From Betaproteobacteria bacterium (GTDB lineage Bacteria > Pseudomonadota > Gammaproteobacteria > Burkholderiales > SG8-39): 12,261 nt of DNA. Made by a program: the position numbers and the translations under genes. The stretch covers positions 1-12,261 of the forward strand of contig JAABQT010000022.1 in assembly GCA_011391295.1 (NCBI GenBank), read 5' to 3'. Positions 5,820-12,261 of this stretch are shown here, piece after piece. The first letter of the stretch is position 1; every line of letters begins with the position of its first letter. A model generated the notes under the pieces. The model ran no database searches. It saw only the letters and a program-made list of their open reading frames with translations, and was not told the origin of the DNA.

Positions 5820-5840
5820 GGCCCGGCAGCGCGCCGGGCC
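5820..5840. terminator. Hairpin between convergent RidA-family gene and tctA
   Basis: GGCCCGGC (5820-5827) and GCCGGGCC (5833-5840) are perfect 8-bp arms with a 5-base loop AGCGC. It lies in the 22-base gap between the two stop codons and reaches the last base of the tctA stop. Its symmetry suits termination from both directions, although no T-run follows on either strand. Confidence 0.65.
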
Positions 5841-7339
5841 TATTCCTGGAAGGCTTCTTCCCTCGTCTTGCGGATATTGGGGAACGCGATGATCGCCAGC
5901 AGGATGATCGATACCACGAGGAACGAGGCACTGATCGGTTTCTGGAAGAACACCAGCGCATCGCCGCGCGACAGCAGCATCGCGCGGCGCAGGTTCTCCT
6001 CCATCAGCGGCCCGAGGATGAAACCGAGGATCATCGGTGCCGGCTCGCACTCCAGCTTCACGCACACGTAGCCGAGCAGGCCGAACATCGCCATCAGCAG
6101 CGTGTCGAAGGGGTTGTTCGACAGGCTGTACACGCCGATGCACATGAACACCAGGATCGACGGGTACAGCCAGCGGTAGGGCACGGTGAGCAGCTTGATC
6201 CAGATGCCGATCAGCGGCAGGTTGAGCACCACCAGCATCAGGTTGCCGATCCACATCGACACGATCATTCCCCAGAACAGTTGCGGCCGCTCGGTCATCA
6301 CCTGCGGCCCGGGCGCGATGCCCTGGATCATCATCGCGCCGATCATCAGCGCCATCACCGCGTTCGAGGGAATGCCGAGCGTGAGCAGCGGAATGAACGA
6401 GGTCTGCGCGCCCGCGTTGTTGGCCGATTCGGGCGCGGCGACGCCTTCGATCGCTCCCTTGCCGAATTCGTGCGAGTACTTCGACACCTTCTTTTCCAGC
6501 GTGTAAGCGCCGAACGAGGACAGCAGCGCGCCGCCGCCGGGCAGGATGCCGAGCGCCGAACCGAGGAAGGTGCCGCGCAGGATCGGCTTCCAGATGCGCT
6601 TGAAGTCCTCGCGCGTCGGCCACAGGTGCGTCACCTTGCTGGTGAACACCTCGCGCGCGCCCTTCTGCTCCAGGTTGCCGATGATCTCCGCCAGCCCGAA
6701 CATGCCCATCGCCACGGTGACGAAACCGATGCCGTCGGCGATTTCCGGCACGCCAAAGGCAAAGCGCAGCACGCCCGAATTCACGTCGGTGCCCACCAGG
6801 CCGAGCATCAGCCCGAGCAGCACCATGCAGATCGCCTTGATGAGCGAGCCGTGCGCCAGCACCACCGCAGCCACCAGGCCGAGCACCATCAGCGAGAAGT
6901 ACTCCGAGGGACCGAATTTCAGCGCCACCTCCGCGAGCGGCGGCGCGAACATCGCCACTACCAGCGTCGCCACACAGCCGGCGAAAAAGGAACCGAGCGC
7001 CGCGGTGGCGAGCGCCGGCCCGGCGCGCCCCTGGCGCGCCATCTGGTAGCCGTCGAGGCAGGTCACCACGGAAGAAGATTCCCCGGGCAGGTTGACCAGG
7101 ATCGCCGTGGTCGAGCCGCCGTACTGCGCGCCGTAGTAGATGCCGGCGAGCATGATCAGCGCCGCGACCGGGTCCAGGTTGAAAGTGATCGGCAGCAGCA
7201 TGGCGATGGTGGCCACCGGGCCCACGCCGGGCAGCACGCCGATCAACGTGCCGAGGACCACGCCGATCAGGCACATCAGCAGGTTGAACGGCGACAGGGC
7301 CACGCCGAAGCCGAGCGCGAGATTGGCGATGATTTCCAT
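5840..7339 (-). CDS. tctA: Tripartite tricarboxylate transporter large permease TctA
   Basis: A 499-residue polytopic inner-membrane protein, the normal length for TctA, which forms the ion-driven channel of a TTT transporter for tri- or dicarboxylates delivered by a periplasmic binding protein. Family signatures include LIGVLPGVGP (32-41), YYGAQYGGSTTAILVNLPGE (68-87), GILPGGGALLSSF in the second half, and PESANNAGAQTSFIPLLTLG, showing the two-fold repeat of the family. About a dozen hydrophobic segments are seen. ATG 7339 is preceded by GAGGG with 4 bases of spacing, and only 10 bases separate it from the tctB stop, so the two are one operon. Neither tctC nor a TctD/E two-component system lies in the window; the substrate cannot be inferred. 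Confidence 0.97.
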   Translation of the reverse strand: MEIIANLALGFGVALSPFNLLMCLIGVVLGTLIGVLPGVGPVATIAMLLPITFNLDPVAALIMLAGIYYGAQYGGSTTAILVNLPGESSSVVTCLDGYQMARQGRAGPALATAALGSFFAGCVATLVVAMFAPPLAEVALKFGPSEYFSLMVLGLVAAVVLAHGSLIKAICMVLLGLMLGLVGTDVNSGVLRFAFGVPEIADGIGFVTVAMGMFGLAEIIGNLEQKGAREVFTSKVTHLWPTREDFKRIWKPILRGTFLGSALGILPGGGALLSSFGAYTLEKKVSKYSHEFGKGAIEGVAAPESANNAGAQTSFIPLLTLGIPSNAVMALMIGAMMIQGIAPGPQVMTERPQLFWGMIVSMWIGNLMLVVLNLPLIGIWIKLLTVPYRWLYPSILVFMCIGVYSLSNNPFDTLLMAMFGLLGYVCVKLECEPAPMILGFILGPLMEENLRRAMLLSRGDALVFFQKPISASFLVVSIILLAIIAFPNIRKTREEAFQE

Positions 7340-7896: not shown

Positions 7897-7909
7897 GTGG
7901 AAATTCCAC
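7897..7909. promoter_or_regulatory. 13-base palindrome in divergent tctB / esterase gap
   Basis: GTGGAA and TTCCAC form perfect 6-base arms around one central A. The site lies 77 bases upstream of tctB and 14 bases before the esterase ATG. A short AT-rich palindrome between divergent genes is a reasonable operator candidate, but no regulator gene is adjacent and no motif family is recognised. Confidence 0.3.
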
Positions 7910-7923
7910 GCTTGAACGCAACA

Positions 7924-8529
7924 ATGGCAGGTTGGCGTCTCGTTCTGCTGAGCATCGCGCTGCTCGCCACCGCCTGCGGCGATGCGCCGAAACTGGCGCC
8001 GCTCGCGCCCGACGCGCTGGTGCTCGCCTTCGGCGACAGCCTGACTTACGGCACCGGCGCGCGCGAACAGGACAGTTACCCGGCACAGCTCGAGAAACTC
8101 ATTGGGCGCCGCGTGGTGCGCGCCGGCGTGCCTGGAGAAACCAGCGCCGCCGCGCTCGCACGCCTGCCCGCCGCGCTGGACGAGCACCAGCCCGCGCTGC
8201 TCCTGCTGTGCATCGGCGGCAACGATTTCCTGCGCAACCTGGGCCAGGCGCAGGTCGCCGAGAATGTGCGCCGCATGGTGGCGCTGGCGCAGGCGCACGG
8301 CACCGGTGTACTGCTGATCGGCACGCCCGAGAAGGGCTTCACGCTGACGCCGCCCGCGTTCTACCCCGAGCTGGCCGGGCAACTGCGCATTCCGTATGAA
8401 GGCAAGGTGATCGGCGAGATCCTGCGCAATTCCGAGCTGAAGTCCGACGCCATTCACCCCAACGCGCGCGGCTACCGCCTGATCGCGGAGCGCGTCGCGG
8501 CGCTATTGAAGAAGTCTCGCGCGCTGTAA
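7924..8529 (+). CDS. SGNH/GDSL-type esterase lipoprotein (TesA-like)
   Basis: A 201-residue hydrolase that probably acts on ester or thioester bonds in the periplasm. The N terminus (MAGWRLVLLSIALLATAC) is a lipoprotein signal ending at Cys18. All SGNH blocks are present: block I FGDSLTYG with nucleophile S39, block II Gly71 (GVPGETS), block III IGGND with N100, and block V DAIHP with D175 and H178. The arrangement resembles TesA/arylesterase (acyl-CoA thioesterase I / lysophospholipase L1), but the lipid anchor is an addition to the usual soluble form. The frame runs back to a GTG at 7897; ATG 7924 gives a proper signal peptide start, though it has no strong ribosome site. The last 27 bases overlap the end of the opposite-strand transferase gene. 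Confidence 0.92.
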   Translation: MAGWRLVLLSIALLATACGDAPKLAPLAPDALVLAFGDSLTYGTGAREQDSYPAQLEKLIGRRVVRAGVPGETSAAALARLPAALDEHQPALLLLCIGGNDFLRNLGQAQVAENVRRMVALAQAHGTGVLLIGTPEKGFTLTPPAFYPELAGQLRIPYEGKVIGEILRNSELKSDAIHPNARGYRLIAERVAALLKKSRAL

Positions 8530-9072
8530 ACGCCGGTAGTCCGCGGGCCGGTCGACATCCCACACCGTGCGCAGCTCGCGCCAGCGCCAGCCCAGCGCGA
8601 GGAGCCGCTCGCGTGTCTGCGCCATCACCCGCGGGCCGCCCCATTCGATGCCCGTGAACAATCGCGGCGAGACGCGGCGCAGCGCGACCAGCGCGTAGCC
8701 GCCGTCCTCTGCCGGGGCGAACACCGCGTCGGCGCCGCCCGCCAGCCAGCGCGCGGCGCGGCGCAGGTCGCGCGCCTGCAGCACCGGGCAGTCCGAGCCG
8801 ATGAGGATCATGCGCGCCGCGCGGCGCAGGCCGTGCTGGAACGCGTGGTGCATGCGCTCGCCCAGATCGGCGCCGCGTTGCCGGCGCGTGGCCCACAGTT
8901 CCACTGTGCCCAGCCGCGCCGCGCACGCGGTGTGCAGCGCGTGGCGCACCAGGCGCGCGTGCAGTCGCGCCGCGCCCTGCTCGCCAAGGAGCGGGATCAG
9001 GCGCGTCTTCACGCGCCCGGCGCACGCTTCGCGCGCGAACACCACCACGCTAGTTCGAATATCGGCGCGCAA
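8503..9072 (-). CDS. TIGR04282-family transferase (DUF2064, nucleotidyltransferase-like fold)
   Basis: A 189-residue soluble protein of the family called arsenosugar biosynthesis or rSAM/selenodomain-associated transferase 1. Motifs: VVVFAREACAGRVKTRL (9-25, nucleotide-binding-like loop with GRVKTRL), GSDCP (92-96, metal/nucleotide aspartate), APAEDGGYALVAL (119-131) and WDVDRPADYRRL (171-182). The fold is that of GT-A/nucleotidyl transferases; the true reaction is not established. The start is uncertain: TTG 9072 overlaps the previous gene by 23 bases, while in-frame GTG 9048, one base after that gene's stop, would give a more typical short N terminus. Either way translation is probably coupled. 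It is the last gene of the right-hand operon. Its end overlaps the convergent esterase gene by 27 bases. Confidence 0.9.
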   Translation of the reverse strand: MRADIRTSVVVFAREACAGRVKTRLIPLLGEQGAARLHARLVRHALHTACAARLGTVELWATRRQRGADLGERMHHAFQHGLRRAARMILIGSDCPVLQARDLRRAARWLAGGADAVFAPAEDGGYALVALRRVSPRLFTGIEWGGPRVMAQTRERLLALGWRWRELRTVWDVDRPADYRRLQRARLLQ

Positions 9073-9721
9073 GTTCGCCCGGGTCCGCGCCCAGCCAGTA
9101 CAGGAATCGCAGCCGCCACATCAGCAGCACGGTGCGCAGCAATCCACGGCGCTCCCAGCGCCGCGCCGAGGTCGTCACCTTGAGGCGCAAGCAGGCGGGC
9201 GGCGAAATGCGCTTCATGCGCGCGCTGAAGGCGATGTCCTCCATCAGCGCAATCTCCGGGAACTGCGCAAAGGCATTCCGGCGCACGAAGATGGCCTGGT
9301 CGCCGGTGGCGATGCCGGTGAGTCGCGAGCGCCAGTTCATGCAGAAGCCGACGATGCCGAGCCTGGCGTCGCGCGAATCGATGCACACGTCGAAGCGGCC
9401 CCAGGCGCGCGAGCGCAGCGCCTCGAGCACCGCGTCCGCCGCCAGCGGCGGCAGTTCGGTGTCGGCGTGCAGGAACAGCAACGCGTCTGCGCTCGCGGCG
9501 CGCGCGCCGGCGTTCATTTGCACGGCGCGCCCGCGCGGCGCCGCCAGCACGCGGTCAGCGAGGGGTTGCGCCAGCCGCAGGGTGTCATCGGTGCTGCCGC
9601 CATCCACCACGATCACTTCATGGCCGCGCGCGCGCAGCGGCGCAAGCCGGCGCAGGCAAGCGACGATCCCCGCCGCCTCGTTCAGCGCGGGGACGACGAG
9701 CGAAAGTCGTTGAGCGTCCAA
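9050..9721 (-). CDS. TIGR04283-family GT2 glycosyltransferase
   Basis: A 223-residue glycosyltransferase of the GT2 type, family name arsenosugar biosynthesis or rSAM/selenodomain-associated transferase 2. Motifs in order: LVVPALNEAAGI (8-19), IVVDGGSTDDT (37-47, nucleotide-sugar site), RGRAVQMNAGA (63-73), LFLHADTELP (82-91, metal-binding HADT in place of DxD), TGDQAIFV (139-146), LMEDIAFSARM (159-169, catalytic acidic pair) and a basic RRWERRGLLRT segment (187-197). A hydrophobic stretch near 197-210 may contact the membrane. The only suitable start is TTG 9721, inside the end of the DUF547 gene (40-base overlap); a GGTGGAG lies about 14 bases before it. The length fits the family. Pairing with TIGR04282 is the usual arrangement. 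Acceptor and donor sugars are unknown. Confidence 0.9.
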   Translation of the reverse strand: MDAQRLSLVVPALNEAAGIVACLRRLAPLRARGHEVIVVDGGSTDDTLRLAQPLADRVLAAPRGRAVQMNAGARAASADALLFLHADTELPPLAADAVLEALRSRAWGRFDVCIDSRDARLGIVGFCMNWRSRLTGIATGDQAIFVRRNAFAQFPEIALMEDIAFSARMKRISPPACLRLKVTTSARRWERRGLLRTVLLMWRLRFLYWLGADPGELARRYSN

Positions 9722-10452
9722 TCGTAGTCGAGGAACTCCACCGGCACCGCGCCGCCCGGGTACCCCAGCGCCCCGGCATGGCGCGCGAAATAGGCCTGCC
9801 GCGGCTCGAAATCCTCCTTGAACCAGTCGAAGATCTTCGACACCTCGAGTTTGCCGTCGCGATAGCGGTTGCGCGTGCGGTCGGAGAGGAAGCGCTGCGC
9901 CTGCTCGTCCAGCTGCTGCTCCAGGCGCCCCGCCACGTAGGCTTCCTCGCGCAGCATGGGGCAGCCGATCGAAGCGCAGTTCACCGCGTAGTGCACGCGC
10001 GCATCGTCGTAGGCGCCGGGCTGCCTCAGGATTTCGTGCTCGATGCCATCCAGGCTCATGCGCCGCCCGAGCAGGGTGAAGAAATGGTCCTTGAACGGAT
10101 TGCCGAAGATCTTGCCGAAATCCCAGATCGAGCGGATGTCCGGGTAGCGCGTGAGGATCTTCTCGACAGTGAAGGCGTTGTAGGCGTTGATGAGGAATGC
10201 CTTGCGCTCGTTTTTCGGCCAGCCGCCGAACTCCGCCTTCGGCACCTTCGAGAGCGCGTCGAAGTAGCCCTTGAGCGCGGCGCGCTCCTTCGCCATCTCG
10301 GCGTAGCGCACCTGGGAGGCATGGTTCCCGGGCAGCAGCACCACGTGCCTGCGCACCAGCGCGTCCCAGGCCTGGTGCGACTGGTCGAAGCCCTGCGCCA
10401 GCGCTGGCGCCGCCCACAGGCAGCCGAGCGTCAGGATCAGCCGCGCATCCAC
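9682..10452 (-). CDS. Secreted DUF547-domain protein
   Basis: A 256-residue protein with a Sec signal peptide (DARLILTLGCLWAAPALA, likely cut before Gln20), so it acts in the periplasm or beyond. The DUF547 domain is recognised by KAFLINAYNAFTVEKIL (84-100), the SIWDFGKIFG segment (108-117) and HYAVNCASIGCPMLREEAY (154-172), whose two cysteines C159 and C164 and the His154/Asn158 look like a conserved active or metal site. The biochemical role of DUF547 is not established. The start is GTG 10452, with GAGAGG 9-14 bases upstream. It overlaps the end of the oxidoreductase gene by 16 bases, while its own 3' end contains the start of the GT2 gene, so it is the link in a coupled operon. Confidence 0.92.
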   Translation of the reverse strand: MDARLILTLGCLWAAPALAQGFDQSHQAWDALVRRHVVLLPGNHASQVRYAEMAKERAALKGYFDALSKVPKAEFGGWPKNERKAFLINAYNAFTVEKILTRYPDIRSIWDFGKIFGNPFKDHFFTLLGRRMSLDGIEHEILRQPGAYDDARVHYAVNCASIGCPMLREEAYVAGRLEQQLDEQAQRFLSDRTRNRYRDGKLEVSKIFDWFKEDFEPRQAYFARHAGALGYPGGAVPVEFLDYDWTLNDFRSSSPR

Positions 10453-12261
10453 GCGTGAAACCTCTCCACGATGCGCAGCAGTCCCTGCGGCGCGTGCGCT
10501 TTCTTCCACACCCCCGCGGCGAACTTGTTGGCCTCCGCAAGCGTGGGGTAGATGTGGATGGTGCCGAGGATCTTGTTCAGCCCGAGGCCGTGGCGCATGG
10601 CGGCGACGAACTCCGCGATCAGGTCCCCGGCATGGTCGCCCGCGATGGTGACCCCCAGGATGCGATCCTTGCCCGGCACGGTCAGCACCTTGACCACGCC
10701 GTGGGCTTCCTCGTCCGCGATGGCACGGTCCAGGTCGTCGATGCCGTAGGTCGAGACCTCGTAGGCGATGCCCTTTTCCTTCGCCTCGATCTCGTTCAGC
10801 CCCACGCGCGCCACCTCGGGGTCGGTAAACGTTGCCCACGGGATCACCGAGTAGTCGGCGCGGGTTTTCTTGAACGCGCCGAACAGGCTGTTCACCGCCG
10901 CGTAGTAGGCCTGGTGCGAGGCGGTGTGCGTGAACTGGTAGGGCCCGGCGACATCGCCACAGGCATAGATGTTGGGATAGATCGTCTGCAGGAATTCGTC
11001 GGTCTGCACGGTGCGCGTCCTGGTCAGCGGGATGCCCAGTTCCTCCAGTCCGTAGCCGCTGGTGTTGGCCACGCGCCCCACGGCCACCAGCAGCGCGTCG
11101 AAGCCGATCGCCAGCTCGCGTCCCTGGTGCTCGCAGATCAGCACCTTGCGCCCGTCCTCGACGCGGAACTCCTTCGCCTTGTGCCCGACGCGCACGTCCA
11201 CGCCCTCCTCGCGAAAGCGCTTGGCCACCATCTCCGCGATTTCGGGATCCTCGCGCATCAGCAGCCGCGGCAGCATCTCCACCTGCGTCACCCGGGCGCC
11301 GAGGCGCGCGAAGGCCTGTGCCAGCTCGCAACCGATCGGCCCGCCGCCCAGCACCACCAGGCGCTGCGGCAGATCGCGCAGCTCCCACAGCGTGTCGGAG
11401 GTGTAGTAACCCGTCTGCTCGATGCCGGGGATCGGCGGCACGAAGGGCCGCGCGCCGGCCGCGATGACGATTGAGCGCGTGCTCAGGACCTTCGTCGAGC
11501 CGTCATTGCATTTGATTTCCACGATCCAGGGAGAAGCGATCTTTGCTTCCCCCTGGACACACTCGACCCCGAGCCCTTCGAAGCGCTCAATGGAATCATG
11601 CGGCTCGATGGTCTTGATCACCCGCTGCACCCGCTCCATCACCTCGGCGAAGTCGAATTCCGCGCCGGCACTCTTCAGCCCGTATTCCTTGGCGCGCCGG
11701 ATGGTCGAGAGCACGCGCGCGGTCTTGATCAGCGCTTTGGAGGGCACGCAGCCCGTGTTGAGGCAGTCCCCGCCCATGCGGTGCTTTTCCACCAGCGTCA
11801 CCTTGGCCTTGACCGCCGCGGCGATGAGCGCGCTCACCAGTCCCGCCGACCCGGCCCCGATCACCACCATGTTGCGGTCGAACTGCGCCGGTCGGTCCCA
11901 CTTCGCATAGACGCGGCGGGCCTTGAGCACCTCGAGGACCTTTTTCGCCGCCAGGGGAAACAGCCCGAGCAGCGTGAATGCAGCGACCAGCCCGCCGGAG
12001 AGCCTGAACTCGCTGAGTTGCGCGCCGGCGTAGACATAGACCAGCGTGCCGGCCAGCATCCCGGCCTGGCTCACCCAGTAGAAGGTCCAGGTGCGCATCG
12101 GCGTCAGTCCCATCACCAGGTTGATGACGAAGAACGGGAACACCGGCACCAGGCGCAGCGCGAACAGGTAGAACTCGCCCTCGCGCGCCACGCCGTCGTT
12201 GATCAACCTGAGCCGGTCGCCGAAACGTGCCTGCACCAAGTCGCGCAGCACGAACCTCGAG
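10437..12261 (-). CDS. TVP38/TMEM64–FAD disulfide oxidoreductase fusion, 5' end outside window
   Basis: A fusion of a membrane TVP38/TMEM64 (SNARE-assoc/DedA-like) domain and a MerA/lipoamide dehydrogenase-type flavoenzyme. Residues are numbered from an in-frame GTG at 12251, but the frame stays open to the edge and the TVP38 N terminus is missing. Membrane part: about 1-110, with RLVPVFPFFVINLVMGLTP (33-51) and further helices near 62-75 and 86-102. Flavoenzyme part: FAD site VVIGAGSAG (129-137), redox disulfide GGDCLNTGCVPSK with C163 and C168, NAD(P)H site VVLGGGPIGCELA (299-311), second FAD motif YACGDVAG (429-436), and a C-terminal dimerisation domain with HIYPTLAEA (566-574). The HPT catalytic histidine of lipoamide dehydrogenase is Tyr568. 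No vicinal C-terminal cysteines of MerA are seen, so mercury reduction is unlikely. It leads the four-gene overlapping operon. Confidence 0.95.
   Translation of the reverse strand, partial: SRFVLRDLVQARFGDRLRLINDGVAREGEFYLFALRLVPVFPFFVINLVMGLTPMRTWTFYWVSQAGMLAGTLVYVYAGAQLSEFRLSGGLVAAFTLLGLFPLAAKKVLEVLKARRVYAKWDRPAQFDRNMVVIGAGSAGLVSALIAAAVKAKVTLVEKHRMGGDCLNTGCVPSKALIKTARVLSTIRRAKEYGLKSAGAEFDFAEVMERVQRVIKTIEPHDSIERFEGLGVECVQGEAKIASPWIVEIKCNDGSTKVLSTRSIVIAAGARPFVPPIPGIEQTGYYTSDTLWELRDLPQRLVVLGGGPIGCELAQAFARLGARVTQVEMLPRLLMREDPEIAEMVAKRFREEGVDVRVGHKAKEFRVEDGRKVLICEHQGRELAIGFDALLVAVGRVANTSGYGLEELGIPLTRTRTVQTDEFLQTIYPNIYACGDVAGPYQFTHTASHQAYYAAVNSLFGAFKKTRADYSVIPWATFTDPEVARVGLNEIEAKEKGIAYEVSTYGIDDLDRAIADEEAHGVVKVLTVPGKDRILGVTIAGDHAGDLIAEFVAAMRHGLGLNKILGTIHIYPTLAEANKFAAGVWKKAHAPQGLLRIVERFHAWMRG

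Follow-up and report, generated by a model that had tools for sequence, protein, structure and literature searches.

A conserved four-gene operon encoding a VTT-flavoenzyme fusion, a DUF547 protein and two ArsS-associated transferases in a betaproteobacterium

What common function could unite four overlapping genes at one end of a short contig from a Betaproteobacteria bacterium (assembly GCA_011391295.1, contig JAABQT010000022.1)? The window analysed here is that whole contig (G000:C140), exactly 12261 bases, from a genome assembly that is 62% complete. Its minus strand carries, in the order of reading, genes for a fusion of a VTT membrane domain to a flavoenzyme, a DUF547 protein, a TIGR04283 protein and a TIGR04282 protein. 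We conclude that the four genes are a real, conserved operon. We also consider it likely, with a probability of roughly two in three, that this operon represents an unlinked "back half" of an ArsS-type (arsenosugar-annotated) gene set, with two uncharacterised additions. We favor this reading because ArsS and TIGR04169 are encoded in the same genome, ArsS precedes the operon in relatives, and the neighbours concerned are enriched over random placement. By analogy, ArsS-pathway chemistry may take place here, perhaps with arsenic as the element.

The four-gene operon

The first gene (10437..12260; window features are on the minus strand unless stated otherwise) encodes a fusion of a TVP38/VTT domain to a pyridine nucleotide-disulfide oxidoreductase, of which 607 amino acids are present, the N-terminus being cut by the contig end. 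It overlaps by 16 bases (10437..10452, from the sequence) the gene for the DUF547 protein (9682..10452), which starts with GTG and encodes 256 amino acids, a length like that of its homologues, with a PF04784 match. A 40-base overlap (9682..9721) follows with the gene for the TIGR04283 family 2 glycosyltransferase (9050..9721; 223 amino acids; 253.7 bits, cut-off 182), whose TTG start is identical in three same-genus relatives (L193, L194 and L035). The last gene (8503..9072) encodes a TIGR04282 CofC/DUF2064-type nucleotidyltransferase-like protein of 189 amino acids (177 bits, cut-off 134), with a relative in the PDB (3cgx). Its overlap of 23 bases with the TIGR04283 gene (9050..9072, from the sequence) holds if the TTG start is correct; an alternative GTG start at 9048 would abolish it. 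Thus the initial annotation of this DNA, which described four same-strand genes overlapping by 16, 40 and 23 bases, was correct in its coordinates and overlaps. Its four family assignments also hold, as the TIGR04283, TIGR04282, DUF547, VTT and Pfam flavoenzyme domains all exceed their cut-offs.

Across all four genes, nonsynonymous divergence (dN) is 0.13-0.23 versus a synonymous divergence (dS) of 0.41-0.66 in comparisons with two genomes of the same genus (G142 and G141). No minus-strand promoter-like or terminator-like site was reported within 8300-12261, which argues weakly for a single transcript.

We considered the possibility that these are four unrelated genes that happen to be neighbours in a gene-dense genome. 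Short overlaps are, to our knowledge, common in compact GC-rich genomes. However, the identical order recurs in G141, G142, G144, G150 and G156 and is thus conserved across genera, the families involved are enriched near one another across the class, and dN is below dS in all four genes. We regard chance adjacency as exceedingly improbable, and reject it on the grounds of the cross-genus order and the class-wide enrichment.

ArsS in the window's genome and in relatives

The window's own genome encodes ArsS (TIGR04167; 408 bits, cut-off 300) at C399:14806-15711, on a contig other than that of the window. Directly upstream is the gene for a 110-amino-acid AhpD-like protein (L083:14284-14616) that matches TIGR04169 (178 bits, cut-off 120), which NCBIfam describes as an arsenosugar biosynthesis-associated peroxidase-like family. 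This pair, TIGR04169 and then a divergent ArsS, spans 14284-15720 of G000:C399 (L083); similar pairs are found in G141 (L205) and G142 (L206), and a more distant one in G148 (L207).

In many relatives ArsS lies beside the operon. A scan of genome contigs yielded 46 loci, 42 of them with a whole or partial fusion. ArsS was screened in 20 relatives plus the window's own genome and is over the cut-off in 12 of these 21. The fusion was searched for in 15 of the 20 relatives and is present at >=880 bits in 13 (G146 and G147 are without it); L035/L192 and L067/L193, apparently the same records, were each counted once within the 13. Eight of these 13 have ArsS upstream of their fusion and in the same orientation, a fraction that is skewed upward because the five relatives left out of the fusion search (G152, G155 and G157-G159) had no ArsS. 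ArsS directly precedes the fusion in G144, G145, G150, G151 and G156, and a single gene of family F69 separates the two in G143, where ArsS consists of two partial pieces at contig ends, and in G149 and G153.

The full order fusion-DUF547-TIGR04283-TIGR04282 is found in five of the 13 relatives (G141, G142, G144, G150 and G156). G153 has the first three genes, with TIGR04282 not detected. In G140, G143, G145, G148 and G149 the fusion is followed by TIGR04283 and TIGR04282 without a full DUF547 gene. The contig of G151 stops after the fusion, and G154 has two fusions with the other cluster genes not nearby. The association of the four families as a set therefore stands for only part of the fusion-bearing relatives.

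The initial annotation had also suggested that a radical S-adenosylmethionine (SAM) gene of this kind could lie past the right edge of the window. The contig ends at base 12261, so this assembly offers no sequence past that point for the extension proposed in the initial annotation. We rejected ArsS as the gene immediately beyond that edge. In L035/L192, whose fusion is 96% identical to the window's, and in the 82% relative G142 (L067/L193) the gene upstream of the fusion encodes a cyclic nucleoside monophosphate (cNMP)-binding protein, and the genome's own ArsS is on C399. The cNMP-binding gene, not ArsS, precedes the fusion in G140, G142 and G148, the contig of G141 is cut at that point, and the order in G145 is cNMP-ArsS-fusion.

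In the window's genus, three of four genomes have a divergent ArsS off the fusion contig; the fourth, G140 (88% complete), has no ArsS match. In a tree of ArsS proteins, the copies from G000, G141 and G142 group in a clade of their own (100/100) beside the copy from G148, although the branches of these four are long and were flagged by the tree program as unsafe to join. All four copies are on contigs other than that of the fusion, each with a TIGR04169-like neighbour. Judging from synteny and the tree, the operon's ArsS was probably lost in the lineage of the window, which seems to rely instead on a divergent copy at another place in the genome.

Two other genes were seen near the fusion in relatives. 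The F69 family (L077:8748-9692; also in G143, G149 and G153), located between ArsS and the fusion, is a candidate cluster gene without a name: three members (L077, L196 and L204) gave no NCBIfam match, and L077 gave one Metallophos_2 match below the cut-off. A PMT_2 (dolichyl-phosphate-mannose mannosyltransferase-like) membrane protein is encoded upstream of the fusion at L035:3494-5071, with matches near the fusion also in G148 and G149. This protein could use a lipid-linked sugar.

Neighbours of the four families across the class

We surveyed the class with 140 genomes, one per listed family. The Fisher tests and expectations ignore phylogeny and take random positions as uniform, and the adjacency counts are lower bounds owing to broken contigs. 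TIGR04283 is over the cut-off in 81 genomes and ArsS in 78, or 80 with partial matches included (G076 and G086 have only partial, sub-cut-off matches). Both are present in 76 genomes, TIGR04283 only in five, ArsS only in four and neither in 55, and the two are within 5 kilobases (kb) of each other in 48 of the 140. We also examined, with tblastn, 80 stretches of up to 16.7 kb around the best TIGR04283 match in each other genome over the cut-off. These often have the order ArsS-(ArsM)-TIGR04283-TIGR04282 and, in some of the stretches, separate VTT and flavoenzyme genes. The tie to the ArsS (arsenosugar) radical-SAM set that had been proposed from the window alone is thus supported by ArsS in the same genome, by its class-wide co-occurrence with TIGR04283 and by its position upstream of the fusion in relatives.

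The additional families are also enriched at these loci. In at least 22 of 78 genomes a VTT gene (a fusion in four of them) lies no more than 5 kb from ArsS, compared with about 1.2 expected; the count draws on 150 listed VTT matches, and the expectation assumes four VTT genes per genome. Of the 23 genomes with flavoenzyme-only matches (300-538 bits), 13 have them near ArsS or TIGR04283 (0.17 expected). The fusion is found in 43 of the 140 genomes, and five of the 42 outside the window have it within 5 kb of ArsS or TIGR04283 (0.25 expected). DUF547 is rare (40 genes in 31 genomes). Five of the 39 DUF547 genes outside the window are within 5 kb of ArsS or TIGR04283 (0.25 expected), and 12 of the 39, in 10 genomes, when flavoenzyme matches are included (0.39 expected). 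DUF547 counts were drawn from tblastn and PF04784; open reading frame (ORF) cluster F4, which mixes DUF547 with VTT genes (L042, L043 and L047), was left unused.

Several observations weigh against placing the operon in an ArsS pathway. ArsS in the window's genus is unlinked and divergent, sharing about 44% identity with the L036 type, and G140 has none. The window's own genome, as a 62% complete assembly, has no ArsM over the cut-off, and 59 of the 80 ArsS-positive genomes are without an ArsM of the NF040538 type, other ArsM types not being counted. The cluster occurs without DUF547 in G143, G145, G148 and G149, and with only a 46-codon remnant of it in L035. In the class, 37 of the 42 fusions outside the window are more than 5 kb from ArsS or TIGR04283. 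Lastly, the fusion in other lineages lies near genes of the SelD-fusion and bufferin types. The adjacency survey therefore divides the original proposal: TIGR04283, TIGR04282 and ArsS are often adjacent, but most fusions lie apart from them.

A rival reading of these distributions takes the fusion and DUF547 to be a general membrane thiol-redox or stress pair that happens to be co-transcribed with two arsenosugar-type transferases, so that the operon is not one pathway. In addition to the small share of the class fusions near ArsS or TIGR04283, the 42 fusion loci often have other company within 5 kb. Family F7 is found in nine of them, family F5 in seven (one tested member is an extracytoplasmic function (ECF) sigma factor) and family F8 in six (one tested member is the bufferin maturase BufB). 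Among five F7 members tested, TIGR03169 is over the cut-off in L037, L042 and L050 and below it in L062 and L065, and only L037 and L042 carry a SelD domain. Nineteen of the 42 loci have DUF547 within 5 kb of the fusion, one of them (L044) through a weak, partial match where the contig ends, and 16 of the 19 have no ArsS in the stretch examined. The proximity of the fusion to SelD-fusion-type and bufferin-type genes, mostly apart from ArsS, indicates that the fusion is not specific to the ArsS pathway. However, five of 42 is still far over the expected value, the order ArsS-fusion-(DUF547)-TIGR04283-TIGR04282 is repeated across several genera within the family and order to which the window belongs, and flavoenzyme-only matches also cluster with ArsS or TIGR04283. 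We therefore regard a merely co-transcribed pair as unlikely and retain the reading of the operon as part of an ArsS-type set. The VTT-flavoenzyme pair is thus a wider module that was recruited into the ArsS set, and it perhaps serves thiol-reactive elements in general.

Two of these contexts deserve description in their own right. The fusion is near TIGR03169-SelD fusion proteins at L037:12848-15124 and L042:6054-8342, which hints at a link to selenium. At another locus it is near a bufferin-type MNIO maturase, BufB (L041:623-2292), and an HvfC-like gene; clusters F8 and/or F12 are near the fusion also in L037, L048, L049, L050 and L066.

A second alternative keeps the ArsS-type pathway and changes its element, with selenium or another thiol-reactive element in place of arsenic; "arsenosugar" would then be a misnomer in genomes without ArsM. 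We know of no assay behind the names of TIGR04282 and TIGR04283, which rest on co-occurrence. In the window's own 62% complete genome, no ArsM was found over the NF038099 cut-off and none at E<=1e-35 with NF040538, NF008823 not having been run there. The NF038099 model is uninformative on absence, since it gave nothing at E<=1e-60 in the 140 class genomes or in 14 controls; it does match L040. Both the many ArsS genomes without the NF040538 type and the proximity of the fusion family to SelD-fusion proteins (L037 and L042) would also fit another element. In the other direction, NF040538-like ArsM (below the model's own cut-off) occurs in 23 of the 140 genomes, 21 of them with ArsS and 16 with the two within 5 kb. 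ArsM types outside NF040538 were not counted, and a different type does occur (an NF008823 match in L127). Furthermore, the ArsS that has been characterised acts on arsenic (PMC12159101). An element other than arsenic seems to us distinctly unlikely, a little more so than the co-transcribed redox pair, and we continue to favor an ArsS-type (arsenosugar-like) set. The many ArsS genomes without the tested ArsM type nonetheless raise the question of what ArsS uses as its substrate in these bacteria.

Candidate roles and comparison with known systems

The fusion protein has a partial VTT (DedA/TVP38) membrane domain at residues 3-81 (12018..12254; PF09335, 55.1 bits, gathering score 33.9). The match is restricted to profile positions 45-123 because the contig ends; the full-length relative in L035, a 711-amino-acid ORF, scores 78.6 bits, and that in L067 has 716 amino acids. 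Residues 130-579 (10524..11873) comprise the flavin/NAD(P) disulfide oxidoreductase domains (PF07992 and PF02852; Pyr_redox_2 223.4 bits, cut-off 26.1). By its sequence motif, the redox-active disulfide is GGDCLNTGCVPSK (11736..11774), and the dimerisation domain contains the motif HIYPTLAE (10533..10556), which we take to be the second active-site half of the flavoenzyme. We looked through 41 fusion loci, and 40 have an ORF with both Cys-x4-Cys and HxxPTxxE. MerA carries a C-terminal vicinal Cys pair. No CC was found within the last 40 residues of the window fusion or of any of the 40 fusions checked among the 41 loci. The top PDB match of the flavoenzyme is a mercuric reductase (5x1y). We rejected its assignment as a mercuric reductase (TIGR02053, 385.4 bits, below the cut-off of 454.45; no C-terminal Cys pair) and as a dihydrolipoyl dehydrogenase (TIGR01350, 396.1 bits, below 408.8).

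The DUF547 protein (PF04784, 89.3 bits, gathering score 27) begins with a probable Sec signal peptide (10396..10452), judged by eye from the sequence. Its motif HxxxxCxxxxCP (9958..9993) contributes H154, C159, C164 and P165, all invariant in an alignment of 33 sequences, as are E138 and R152. The invariant E138, R152, H154, C159 and C164 would be in keeping with either a thiol or metalloid site or a Cys-His catalytic site. Relatives are mostly 252-258 amino acids long (range 224-268) among the 120 matches listed. A PDB sequence search gave nothing significant (best E 0.18). The 46-codon, in-frame remnant of DUF547 in L035 (8673-8813) accompanies a fusion 96% identical to the window's, and could reflect a recent loss or a misassembly. 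The TIGR04283 protein has only weak matches in the PDB, led by dolichol monophosphate mannose synthase (E 1.2e-5). For the TIGR04282 protein, 3cgx, a putative nucleotide-diphospho-sugar transferase, is the sole match at E<=0.1.

At and beyond the downstream end of the operon are two genes of other families. A GDSL lipase/esterase gene (7897-8529, plus strand) is convergent with the operon and overlaps the end of TIGR04282 by 27 bases. Downstream of the operon is a TctA gene (tripartite tricarboxylate transporter; 5840-7339, minus strand), and a TctA match is retained on the same side of the operon in G142, G143, G145 and G148.

How might the products act together? In the mechanism that we envisage, ArsS would attach a 5'-deoxyadenosyl group to a trivalent metalloid (arsenic in characterised ArsS). 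The TIGR04282 protein could activate a small group with a nucleotide, and the TIGR04283 protein could move a sugar or similar group onto the adenosyl or ribosyl product. The membrane-anchored flavoenzyme might draw on NAD(P)H and its Cys-x4-Cys disulfide to maintain the metalloid, or a thiol partner, in the reduced state at the membrane. The VTT domain might handle a lipid or lipid-linked intermediate, and the exported DUF547 protein might act on the product in the periplasm. The envelope pathway suggested in the initial annotation, with its redox supply, nucleotide-activated sugar or glycolipid and secreted DUF547 step, is hypothetical. We speculate that the ArsS pathway has parts that have gone unrecognised: a TVP38-type protein and a MerA-like flavoenzyme, fused or paired, together with an exported DUF547 protein. 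These would reduce and move a membrane-linked metalloid-nucleoside glycoconjugate and complete it, even in bacteria without ArsM. We hold this proposal only tentatively, and as a whole it is rather improbable.

The ArsS that has been characterised adenosylates arsenic during the formation of arsenosugars (PMC12159101, citing Cheng 2021), and SsArsS acts with SsArsM in the initial steps (PMC8552651, citing Xue 2019). In the portions of these sources available, enzymes are assigned to the first steps of the pathway only (ArsM and ArsS). Candidates for the later arsenosugar steps are thus the TIGR04282/TIGR04283 pair, which recurs, and the VTT, flavoenzyme and DUF547 genes enriched nearby. No link of a VTT-flavoenzyme or TVP38 protein, or of DUF547, to ArsS was found in the accessible parts of the open-licence PubMed Central literature, including PMC12159101, PMC8801600, PMC13077682 and PMC8552651.

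The individual proteins resemble several known families. The window's TIGR04282 protein exceeds the DUF2064 cut-off and aligns to 3cgx, as expected of a relative of CofC/DUF2064 proteins, but it scores only 26.9 bits on the CofC model TIGR03552 (cut-off 105). The fusion has the same domains, the Cys-x4-Cys and the HIYPTLAE of MerA and dihydrolipoyl dehydrogenase. Unlike these enzymes, it is under both cut-offs, adds an N-terminal VTT domain and has no C-terminal CC. Similarly, its VTT domain exceeds the cut-off for the DedA/TVP38/TMEM64 proteins, but is fused to a flavoenzyme, whereas in other genomes VTT and flavoenzyme are encoded by separate adjoining genes, for example with 140-300 bases between them in G002, G020, G036, G043 and G136.

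Among pathways, the arsinothricin cluster arsQML also combines ArsM with a radical SAM enzyme that makes a C-As bond (PMC8552651). However, ArsL transfers another fragment of SAM, and the part of that source available describes no TIGR04282/TIGR04283, VTT or DUF547 component. The ArsM-ArsS arsenosugar pathway of Synechocystis is the other comparison: the window's genome has ArsS as well as TIGR04283, TIGR04282 and TIGR04169, which NCBIfam describes as arsenosugar-associated, all over their cut-offs. It differs in that the genes are on two contigs, ArsS is divergent and no ArsM was found, and in that the operon adds the VTT-flavoenzyme fusion and DUF547.

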